Source: Amphibalanus amphitrite
Lineage: Eukaryota; Arthropoda; Thecostraca; Balanomorpha; Balanidae
Direction of reading: 5' to 3'
DNA length: 64,000 nt
NCBI RefSeq assembly: GCF_019059575.1
Contig: NW_024881782.1
Location: 571,001-635,000, forward strand
Position 1 is the stretch's first letter, and each line of letters opens with the position of its first letter. Below are positions 423-63,885 of the stretch, piece by piece. Under the pieces are notes generated by a model. The model saw only the letters and a list, made by a program, of their open reading frames with translations. It made no database searches and was not told the origin of the DNA. Both the position numbers and the translations under genes were made by a program.

Positions 423-1424
423 CCCGCGCACCGACGGGGGTCTGCGCCAACTTAGTACCGACGGGGGGGGGGGGGGCGGATGACCGCCCCCCCTGAGATC
501 TCGAGAACGAAGCAAGATAGCGACAAGCGGTAAACGGCATCGGATACGCACGGACAAGGTCTACAATTTTTACTAAGGTCATTTTCAGGTCAGGTCAAAG
601 ATGACGTCACAGGGGTCGAAAAAGTCAAAATGGCGGCGCTAGATATGGAGAGGGTTTTTCTCGAATAACTTTCGAAGTAGTCAAGATAGGAACAAACTAA
701 GGGCATCATCGTGATCCTCTCGTCGATCCGCATCGAATGATATATATGTTGACCTCGAAAGGTCAAGGTCAAAGGTTGACCTCAGGTCACGTGACCTCGA
801 GGTCATCATGTATATCATTCGATGCGTCTTGACGAGCTGAACACAATGAGACCATCCGCGCGGCTGTATCTTGTTCCTGTAAGGAGTTATTGGCAAAAAA
901 CCTTTGGTGACCTTTGATGACGTCACATGACCTTACAGCTGCCCAACAGCAAAACAGACCTCAAGGTAGTGAAGGTTGATCGTATGTGAAGTCATGTATG
1001 GTATATGGGGCCATTCCGACCCGTTTTAGTGGTAAAAACAGGGAGTTGATTTTTCCCCCATTGACTTATAATGGGGAGGTCGCGAAATTGACCTGACCTT
1101 AGGTCACCGACATCAAAATTCCGAGATATACAAATTGTAGCTACTAATGACCTAATAACATCCTGCGACTTTCAAAGGCCTCCGACATCTACTGTAGCTC
1201 TGGCACGGTGACAAAGTTGCAAAAAAGTGACTTGAGGTTGGGTCATTCAAAGTGACCTGGTGACCTGACCTTAAAAGTTAGGAGGTTCAAACTTGCACAC
1301 CATGTGTAAAATTGATGAGAGAATAGTCATACCAAATTTCGCGGCGCTACGCGCCGCGGTTTTCCCGCTATCCGCGAAAAACCTCAGGGGGGGCGGATAT
1401 CCGCCCCCCCCGTCGGTGCGCGGG
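423..1424. mobile_element. TTAA-flanked piggyBac-like MITE, copy 1 (PB1)
   Basis: A 1002-bp element lies between direct TTAA copies at 419-422 and 1425-1428. Its ends are an 18-bp perfect inverted repeat beginning CCCGCGCACCGACGGGGG. Next to both ends is a hairpin, a G-run, GCGG, a short loop, CCGC and a C-run, near 463-493 and 1387-1411. The interior holds many AGGTCA/TGACCT hexamers, including AGGTCACGTGACCT (IR2) at 784-797. These sit between inverted copies of a core containing ATTCGAT, near 729 and 817. There is no coding capacity. TTAA plus a CCC start fits the piggyBac superfamily; being nonautonomous is inferred from the lack of a transposase. Confidence 0.8.
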
Positions 1425-1490
1425 TTAACGTTCATTTTAAATCCGTGCATTGTCGCTTAATACCCATACCGACCGTTTTCTAAAAAGGCT

Positions 1491-1629
1491 AATTTCTCTC
1501 TCCCTCCCTCCCTCTCTCTCTCCCTTCCTCCCTCCCTCCCTCCCTCCCTCTCTCTCTCTCTCTCTCTCTCTCTCTCTCTCTCTCTCTCTCTCTCTCTCTC
1601 TCTCGCTCTCGCTCTCGCTCGCTCGCTCA
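1491..1629. repeat. CT-rich microsatellite
   Basis: A pyrimidine tract of CCCT and CT units grades into CT dinucleotides and ends in CGCTCGCTCG. It lies just outside element PB1. The open frame across it (Ser/Leu runs) is a product of the repeat. Confidence 0.9.
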
Positions 1630-2146
1630 CGACAAAAACTTCTAGGCAGGTCTAGACCCTTCCGACTATTGGGTCATTAAACTGACTTGGAGGGTCAACG
1701 CATGACCTATGATCAACGATTGGCCTATGATCTATAAATTGGGTATCATCGGCTTCCTCTCGTCACGTGCAACATGCTCCTTCTTTTCAAGAAGCTCTAG
1801 TTTGATCAAAAGCCGATCAACTGTGGGGTCTGATCCATCCCCACCCAAACGTTAGCGCCTGCGAAAACGCCGATATGGGTGCGAGTTATGGCATGTTCCT
1901 ATATAAACAATGTTATGTTTTGCTTTTTTAGTGGCTTACATCGATTTTGTTCTAAAAATAACGCAAAAAATCAGCATACAGTGATGTTACTTAAACTTTT
2001 ACGCCTAGTTTCCTTTTTAATAATGCTGCAATTGCATTCATGCAACATATTTCTTGGTCAGTTTTGTGACAAAGTTTTGGAAACAGTGCGGCAGAAAGCA
2101 AAACTTTGTTGTGAAACGACCTCCAGCCTCAGCAGGTCACGGTTAA

Positions 2147-62100: not shown

Positions 62101-62588
62101 CATATTCCCAACAGTGCTATTCGACGTAAACAATTGTTGTGTGTGCCAGAAAGGGTGCATTTTTCGTAGGGTTTCCTCGATATGCTCATTTCTTGGCACG
62201 TGTATTATACTTACACGTGCGAATAAGACAGACTTGCTGTATGGCTGTGGCAGTAGATACGTGCCGTAGCTGGCGTAGCAGCTTCATTGAAAGCCCGTCG
62301 GCCGTCACATAACCAGATTAATCAATGAACCAGTTTGCAGCTGTTAAAATACACACATACCAGCGCTACTTACACGCGCCTATAATGCTCGCAAGTTGCA
62401 CAGCGTCTGTTTTATGTCACTCTGACCCATAAGCTCTTCTGCGACAGCTGGGACTTTGACCCGCTGCAGCGTCACAACTTCTGGAACATCTTCTTCGGCC
62501 AGCTGTTCATGTGGACTTCCCTGCTGGGGGTGAACCAGCCGGCAGTCCAGAGACTTCTCAGCTTGCCCACGTACAGAAAGGCCGCCAT
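59134..62588 (+). CDS. SLC5-family sodium/solute symporter, 5' part (five exons)
   Basis: Plasma-membrane sodium-coupled transporter of the monocarboxylate/multivitamin (SMCT/SMVT) branch; exact substrate cannot be read. Exons: 59134-59329, 59754-59887, 61106-61294, 61900-62054, 62448-62588, GT-AG and in phase, about 271 residues; the rest lies past the window. Signatures in order: VAPVALSIMATFLSAILIVG (first helices), GTPSEVFYFG (66-75), LFLPVFHRLGLTSVYE, YLGLRYDSSL, LLYTGIALYAPSIVLSNVTG, GGFRAVIWADVLQAGVM, PLQRHNFWNIFFGQLFMWTS and GVNQPAVQR. The last two match the region before helix 7 of SLC5A8-type proteins. The start MSSASEFGTVNFVVM gives the usual short N-terminus; a noncoding acceptor lies at 59040. 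The intron after exon 5 contains element PB11. Confidence 0.9.
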
Positions 62589-62717
62589 GTAAGGATTCCA
62601 TATACCTAACGCTGAGTCAAAACTCTGTTAAGTAACTTCGCGATGAATTATCCTAACATTAACGGTTAACGGTTTTCACCGTAATCGGAACGAGTGCAAT
62701 TAGGCTTTTCAGTATAA

Positions 62718-63885
62718 CCCGCGCCCTGCTGGGGGGGGGGGGGTGTTTGAACACCCCCCTTTGTGGTTTTTCGCGAATATCTCAAAAACGGCAGCGCTCC
62801 GCGCCGCCGTTTTTGGTACACCTTATCATACATCAATTCTACACATGTTGTGAAAATTTCAGACCAAGGTCATTCAAGGTCAGGTCACCAGGTCACTTGA
62901 AGTGACCTCACCTCATAAAAGTTTCAATGTCTGTCATAGCTACACCGAGTGACCGATCGCTTTGAAATTTTCAGCGATTGCTAAGAGCAATAGCATGTAC
63001 AAAATGAATATCTCAGAATTTTGATATCGATGACCTAAGGTCAGGTCAATTTTGCGACCTCCCCATTATAAGTCAATGGGAGAAAATTGAAATGCGCCTC
63101 TTTTGGACGAAAGACATTATAAACACTCCCAAACACCGAATTACAAGTGTTTTAGACACACTGAAAATGAAAATGGTGTCCGTGACCCTGAGGTCATCTT
63201 AGGTCACGAATGGTATCTAACAGTTTTTCGCAAATAACTTTTGATAGAGGCATACTAGAGCGATGAAAACGCCTTAGATGTGTTCAGCTCGACGATACGG
63301 ATCGACTGATATGCAACATGACCTTTTCCGATCAGGTCATGACCTTGACCTGAGGTCAAATTTTCAAGTTGACCTTTCAAGGTCAAGTTATAGTTCATTC
63401 GATGCGTCTTGACGAGAGGAACACGATGCCGGTGAAAGTAAGCTCGTACAAGGCTTGGGTCAAAAGTTATTGCAGAAAAACTGTTTCCGAAAAAATCGGC
63501 TATTTTTGCAGTTTTTGCCCCCTGCAGGCAAAACCGTTGACGTTAGGTCAAATCTGAGAGAATTACTAGGGCTATCGAATGCGCTTTTCCGCGGCGCAGT
63601 ATCTACATTGGTCCCCGAGTTATGCGTTGGCTTCTTGGAAATTTTCGACATTCGACCTGGAAATCGGCGAAATTTTGCCTTCAATGACCTCTGGTGACCT
63701 GACCTTTGACCTGACCAAAAAATTGACCGAAGTGATTTCGTCATTATTTTTGACGCTCTTTCGAACGCCGCCTTCCGCGTATCGCTACGTGGCCCAGGAG
63801 CCGAGTTACACGGGGGTGTGTGTGTTCAAACACCCCCCCCCCCCCAGCAGGGCGTGGAAATCCATGACCCCCAGCCGGGCGCGGA
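62718..63885. mobile_element. TTAA-type MITE, copy 11 (PB11), in the SLC5 intron
   Basis: 1168 bp flanked by ATAA on both sides (62714-62717 and 63886-63889). Ends are CCCGCGCCCTGCTGGGGG, with a second decayed end stretch on the right. The hairpin is GGTGT-TTGA-ACACC at the left and GTGT-TCAA-ACAC at the right. It has the GC palindrome near 62786-62815. The core has AGGTCATGACCT (perfect IR0) at 63334-63345 and TTCATTCGATGCGTCTTGAC at about 63395-63414. Same subfamily as PB8. Confidence 0.8.

Follow-up and report, generated by a model that had tools for sequence, protein, structure and literature searches.

In the piggyBac transposon (IFP2) of Trichoplusia ni, both ends contain a palindromic internal repeat of 19 bp, and a dimer of the cysteine-rich domain (CRD) of its transposase binds bp 17–33 of the left end. 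Its right end is longer, with bp 34–63 nearly equal to bp 7–35 of the left end (PMC7351741). The palindrome of piggyBat, from Myotis lucifugus, is unrelated to that of piggyBac, and the dimer that binds it is formed by the CRD of piggyBat itself (PMC11707139). The contact between CRD and palindrome is known from these two elements, as two unrelated solutions. In a 2026 preprint, the core of piggyBat was fitted with two piggyBac CRDs, and the right end of piggyBat with the palindrome of piggyBac. Activity was regained once another modified transposase was used together with this chimera, which suggested that the CRD and the palindrome act as a module (PMC13405395). Here we describe TTAA-flanked elements with palindromic ends in a 64-kb stretch of contig NW_024881782.1 of Amphibalanus amphitrite (the window). 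We read them, with a probability of roughly three in four, as non-autonomous piggyBac elements resembling miniature inverted-repeat transposable elements (MITEs; about 0.8–1.2 kb), moved by the transposases of related autonomous copies, with palindromes that are predicted CRD-dimer sites with subfamily-specific half-sites. The palindromes are most likely docking sites of the transposase rather than a new folded structure.

The elements resembled T. ni piggyBac in the TTAA target, the CCC tips, the short left end and the long right end repeating the left-end unit, and also in the palindromic internal repeat, the DDD transposase and a CRD of the same cysteine pattern. They differed from it in the sequence of the palindrome, the long runs of G and C, a longer CRD loop (by 10 to 12 residues), the many coexisting subfamilies and a very high copy number. 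With piggyBat they shared the superfamily and subterminal palindromes, which in piggyBat are bound by a CRD dimer (PMC11707139). The CRD of piggyBat, on the other hand, is of a different fold, and its palindromes are on the left end only. The CMITEs of the coral Acropora also fall into several families of TTAA MITEs within one genome and are linked to autonomous piggyBac-like elements, but their interiors are more conserved than their terminal inverted repeats, and the words hairpin and palindrom- were absent from the accessible text of that paper (PMC2872659). Among the papers listed by searches of an open-access library, none was plainly devoted to subfamilies of piggyBac MITEs whose palindromes co-vary.

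Layout of the elements and their ends

The window contained nine elements with both ends (Table 1), nearly all with a palindrome of a G-run, a stem and a C-run near each end. TTAA was present on both sides of eight of them, and ATAA at both ends of the ninth (PB11). A previous examination of the window (the sequence-only reading) had claimed at least eight TTAA-flanked copies. The stems that it listed (GCGG/CCGC, GCAGA/TCTGC, GTCG/CGAC, GTGG/CCAC, GTGT/ACAC and GCGTT/AACGC) were present at both ends of the elements named. It missed the exception PB2, and also the asymmetry of the ends, of which the long one repeats the tip motif 26–27 bp in. Each complete element had one short end, composed of the tip, a subfamily motif and the palindrome, and one long end, in the order of tip, motif, spacer, motif again and palindrome.

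The ends were studied in a sample of 361 kb in total, which comprised the window, 200 kb of contig C1 (the C1 block), the fetched transposase loci and eight small loci. Profile searches of this sample found 113 ends (48 short and 65 long). One of them, at window position 20417, was an artefact; it was kept in the counts of 113, 94 and 65, and excluded from end pairing, from the palindrome-centre counts and from the counts of shared TTAA. The ends were selected by the rule of a G-run, an inner word of 7–13 nt and a C-run, which 94 of the 113 fitted. The remaining 19 were left out, a few of which are still palindromes (e.g. those at 23570 and 63889).

The tips were mostly CCC[GT]CGC, and the element termini were CC..GG. 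The median palindrome centre was at bp 28 in the short ends (37 ends) and at bp 56 in the long ends (46 ends). A second copy of the motif was found in 53 of the 65 long ends, 50 of them with the copy 26–27 bp further in. The short ends, as a control, gave 6 of 48, none at that distance. In piggyBac of the T. ni type, the long end repeats the unit of the short end at a distance of about 28 bp inwards, and the ends here shared this asymmetry. The inner word was 9 nt long in 58 of the 94 ends and 10 nt in 18 (76 together), as a fixed spacing of a dimer would give.

Symmetry within and between ends

Pairs were counted in the 24 nine-letter words among the 52 distinct inner words. Standard pairs, G-U included, occupied 83.3% of the 72 cells, compared with a shuffled mean of 56.7%. 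None of 500 shuffles reached this level, and slid versions gave at most 45.8%. The covariation score was 0.786 versus 0.298 after shuffling. Two of the five pair-count measures were not separated from the shuffles, namely pairs changed on both sides (equalled or exceeded in 432 of 500 shuffles) and further pair types (76 of 500). In a set of 39 words of any length, one representative per group of similar inner words, 71 of 117 outer-stem cells were complementary (shuffled mean 36.2, maximum 54 in 20,000 shuffles). The inner words are not independent lineages, so that these figures measure the strength of the covariation, not an exact probability.

Matching between the two ends was scored in 18 elements distinct by their short-end word, at least two pairs of which came from the same subfamily (the pair of ends at C1 block 194336–198502 was excluded as wrongly joined). 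The proximal half-site was identical at both ends in 13 elements (shuffled mean 1.3), and so was the distal half-site (shuffled mean 1.4). None of 20,000 shuffles was as high, the maximum being 8. At bp 8–14, 6.5 of 7 positions agreed within an element versus 2.9 between elements. The same palindrome at both ends, a feature of T. ni-type piggyBac, was thus present with exceptions. The spacers differed between short and long ends, and in some subfamilies the distal halves differed too.

The sequence-only reading had stated that both halves of the stem changed together in every case, and that the same stem stood at the opposite end of the same element. The covariation of the halves held; "in every case" did not, in view of PB2 and of the imperfect ends described below. 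The second statement applied to most elements, whose matched ends define subfamilies, but the two ends were not always identical.

Both patterns would follow from a dimeric transposase. The halves of a palindrome would change together because the two CRDs of the dimer read them alike, and the two ends would do so because one enzyme has to bind them both. Every subfamily would then follow its own transposase.

A mutational origin, without selection, is an unlikely source of the symmetry. It supposes that template switching in the quasi-palindrome and conversion between ends keep the halves and the ends alike. Template-switch correction is known for quasi-palindromes, and runs of G and C invite slippage. 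The pattern GGGGNNNTTGANNNCCCC was found at 11,867 sites in the genome (control 119). TGT..ACA was present in 91 of the first 100 matches listed; seven of the nine variants differed from it on one side and two on both. One-sided variants are as expected of copies decaying after insertion, and this small sample suggested that mutual correction is not frequent during the decay. Loop and flanks are held constant by the search pattern, and at least one of the variants changed on both sides looks like a member of another subfamily. The different spacers of short and long ends, and the different distal halves in some subfamilies, also argued against mutual correction. We infer that selection, not mutation, keeps the palindromes symmetric.

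Even less probable is that the palindromes are under selection to form single-strand hairpins or cruciforms, which could, for instance, be recognised as structural marks in the course of transposition or in RNA. The halves do co-vary, and the long runs of G and C would make stable stems. However, the loop was only 0–2 nt in 9 of the 18 distinct inner words with clean stems, too short for a full hairpin. G-U pairs occupied 5 of the 72 cells, so that nothing pointed to pairing in RNA. The inner word stayed at 9–10 nt in 76 of the 94 ends although the G-runs span 3–18. Moreover, in published structures of piggyBac the corresponding palindrome is double-stranded and bent, with two CRDs holding it (PMC7351741).

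A dimer site explains the palindromes better than a fold. The suggestion that the ends "keep their fold" gave way to this reading; a site for a dimeric protein accounts for the symmetry no less well. The hairpin had also been placed outside the standard description of piggyBac ends. It is not new in kind, because the palindromic internal repeat is already published for piggyBac as a CRD-dimer site (PMC7351741). What is distinctive is the scale and diversity, with 90,832 tips, 12 clean half-site types and seven transposase families differing in their CRDs in one genome.

Partner transposases

A Pfam search found 116 piggyBac transposase stretches in the genome. An autonomous element of 4,723 bp (C33:447032–451754) had TTAA on both sides, the long and short ends of the family, and a gene for a 666-aa transposase of the L031 lineage. 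This protein was practically identical at three places (the ends were read at one) and matched PF13843 (E 1e-59). Its residues 137–664 aligned with residues 98–593 of T. ni piggyBac (6x67; E 1.3e-56), and the homology continued through the CRD. Three Asp residues, whose positions in this alignment we take to be the catalytic ones, and the CRD cysteines were kept. The match to piggyBat was weaker (E 4.8e-21), with the CRD outside it. A second complete element (C527; 3,971 bp), with both ends, encoded a 674-aa relative. The piggyBac superfamily label of the sequence-only reading, and its expectation of an autonomous copy with a DDD transposase and the same ends, were borne out by these two elements: TTAA target-site duplication, inverted repeats of the CCC/CCY type and an autonomous DDD partner with the same ends were all found.

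Fourteen loci of the L031 lineage were fetched, and 12 showed their own end in the expected orientation, with the short end 5' and the long end 3' of the gene. The piggyBac gene likewise runs from the short end to the long end. Both ends were seen in two loci, only the short end in one and only the long end in nine; for eight of the 12 loci only the 3' side was fetched, so that only the long end was visible. At the other two loci (L044 and L053) no own end of the family was seen. The tip was the variant CCCGGC in three of the 12, and the TTAA was decayed in one.

The partner transposases contained a CRD with the T. ni cysteine pattern, and seven transposase families with different CRDs were present in the genome. 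The loop between the second and third cysteines was 10–12 residues longer than that of T. ni and differed between families. By counting on the alignment, this variable region was placed where T. ni piggyBac has R567 and K569, which contact DNA (PMC7351741). The CRD of this lineage probably binds this palindrome, and the two presumably co-evolve.

Several observations weigh against a CRD-dimer site. The distance of the palindrome from the tip varied (bp 23.5–35 at short ends), even within one subfamily (centre at bp 30 versus bp 25; C1 block 12031 and 74993), because the length of the G-run varies. A fixed complex would be expected to allow less latitude. The G-runs (3–18) and C-runs (3–16) around the inner words kept their orientation, with G towards the tip, and tolerated changes in length; they have no counterpart in the accessible descriptions of piggyBac and piggyBat ends. 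Three perfect outer pairs were found in only 49 of the 94 ends, representing 18 distinct words and 12 distinct three-base half-sites. In several CCCTCG subfamilies, including the transposase-bearing L041 family, the distal half ..ACGA at the long ends mismatched the proximal half (TTGTTACGA, TTGGTACGA and CGGGTACGA), while the short ends were better palindromes (TTGTATCAA, TTGATGCAA and CGGGTGCCG). This suggested, together with the limited number of clean ends, that the palindromes need not be strictly symmetric at both ends. The correlation between CRD and half-site similarity was weak (Mantel r 0.47; 132 of 5,040 permutations) and confounded by common descent; it covered seven families, too few to carry weight, and the half-site of L043 is uncertain.

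A second piggyBac lineage, with CCCATTA tips (e.g. L029 667–3347 and similar loci), gave about eleven near-identical 604-aa hits. Among the nine first-fetched loci other than L031, TTAACCCATTA tips were seen in five (L029, L030, L032, L033 and L037) and an own end of the CCCKCGC type in none. In comparison with solved structures, L029, the sole member of its lineage compared, resembled piggyBat more closely than T. ni piggyBac. Cross-mobilisation of the elements by this lineage, for instance by the 604-aa family, is the most improbable of the alternatives. Its number of near-identical hits, and one copy inside an element of the CCCKCGC family, would favor it, but the nested copy is a single insertion (one of 40 scored matches spanned the junction and 38 matched the element half only), for which the 604-aa protein was rejected as the partner. 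Its piggyBat-like transposase and its tips without the CCCKCGC motif, which the L031 lineage shares, also spoke against it. Kolobok, which also duplicates TTAA, was rejected, as its termini are described as 5'-RR..YY-3' (PMC9587614), those here are CC..GG, and the partner transposase is piggyBac.

On the reading of the palindromes as CRD-dimer sites, a wider proposal may be made tentatively, at slightly less than even odds. One genome may hold a series of piggyBac systems that arose naturally and are insulated from one another, in which CRDs and palindromes co-diversified into matched pairs, each family moving mainly its own MITEs and the series spelling a recognition code between CRD loop and half-site. 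The presence of a dozen clean half-site types, together with several CRDs that share one cysteine pattern, would allow the recognition rules to be deduced from comparisons and tested by swaps. Insulated pairs of ends and transposases for genome engineering could follow. It could also be seen from such a series how subfamilies of MITEs keep up with a transposase as it changes.

Copy number and features of the window

TTAACCCKCGC tips numbered 90,832 in the 807.55-Mb genome (45,339 and 45,493 on the two strands), compared with 734 (373 and 361) for the reversed-pattern control. As an intact element has two tips, this suggested of the order of 45,000 elements. The stem CGT..ACG, a palindromic pattern that gives the same sites on both strands, was found at 7,461 sites (control 5), and the swapped stem CGT..ACA or its complement at 197 (control 3). 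At up to two mismatches, GGGGTGTTTGAACACCCC matched 13,033 times on one strand and 13,126 times on the other (controls 9 and 18), probably largely at the same sites; the copies listed were perfect ones only and thus carried no information on variants. A 105–107-bp piece of one element was present at 99–100% identity at no fewer than 38 further places among the 40 scored of 1,035 candidates. One subfamily looks recently mobile.

Table 1. Elements and single ends of the family in the window
Feature	Position	Strand	Length (bp)	Short end	Long end	Palindrome or inner word	Remarks
PB1	419..1428	-	1010	1428	419	GCGGATGACCGC / GCGGATATCCGC	Non-autonomous piggyBac element; TTAA both sides
PB2	2143..2988	+	846	2143	2988	GGGCAATAAAGCCC / GGGCATTTTGCCC	Imperfect palindromes; exception in the window
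PB3	8620..9614	-	995	9614	8620	GCAGATTCTGC / GCAGAATCTGC	
PB4	10592..11618	+	1027	10592	11618	GTCGATGCGAC	Same word at both ends
Lone long end	17627..17742	+				CGGGTACGA	CCATCGCCGG..; mismatched halves
PB6	20446..21362	+	917	20446	21362	GTGGTTGCCAC	Same word at both ends
PB7	21449..22386	-	938			GTGGTTGCCAC	Same word at both ends; TTAA 22383–22386 shared with PB8
PB8	22383..23570	-	1188			GTGTCTGAACAC (long end), GTGTTTGAACAC (short end)	
Decayed long end	25682..25791	+					CCCTCGCCGG-type element; possible partner of short end at 28417
Decayed short end	28252..28417	-				GGGTGCCGCACCC	CCCTCGCCGG..
Decayed long end	51894..51953	-					Of another element; TTAA 51950–51953 shared with PB9b
PB9b/E52	51950..52867	+	918			GCGTTAAACGC	Same word at both ends
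Decayed short end	55820..55988	+				TTATCCCTCGCCC	
PB11	62714..63889	+	1176			GTGTTTGAACAC	ATAA flanks at both ends

PB7 was 92% identical to PB6, in inverse orientation. The palindrome GCGTTAAACGC and the motif of PB9b were those at the long ends of two transposase-bearing loci (L049 and L052). No transposase remnants were found in the small elements by tblastn of four transposases against the window, the C1 block, L001–L008 and L029, of which only L029 matched. No known RNA family was found in the window at the gathering threshold.

Neighbouring elements had a single TTAA in common at five sites among the 80 tips of the window and the C1 block: the two in the window given in Table 1, and 38048, 76171 and 136482 in the C1 block. 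Further shared TTAA were seen at L041 298–301 and L045 903–906. This is what would be seen if new copies inserted at the TTAA bordering older ones.

Three other features were noted in the window. A large inverted-repeat element (3433–8492) had near-contiguous arms at about 3433–5201 and, in pieces, 7203–8492, 96–99% complementary, and enclosed a minisatellite of 20-bp units (5735–6952). An exon with an Ndc80/HEC1 domain was located at 33066–33575. A relic of a mariner-like transposase (36046–37215) consisted of two reading-frame pieces with a stop between them, matching PF16087 and, below its cut-off, PF13358.

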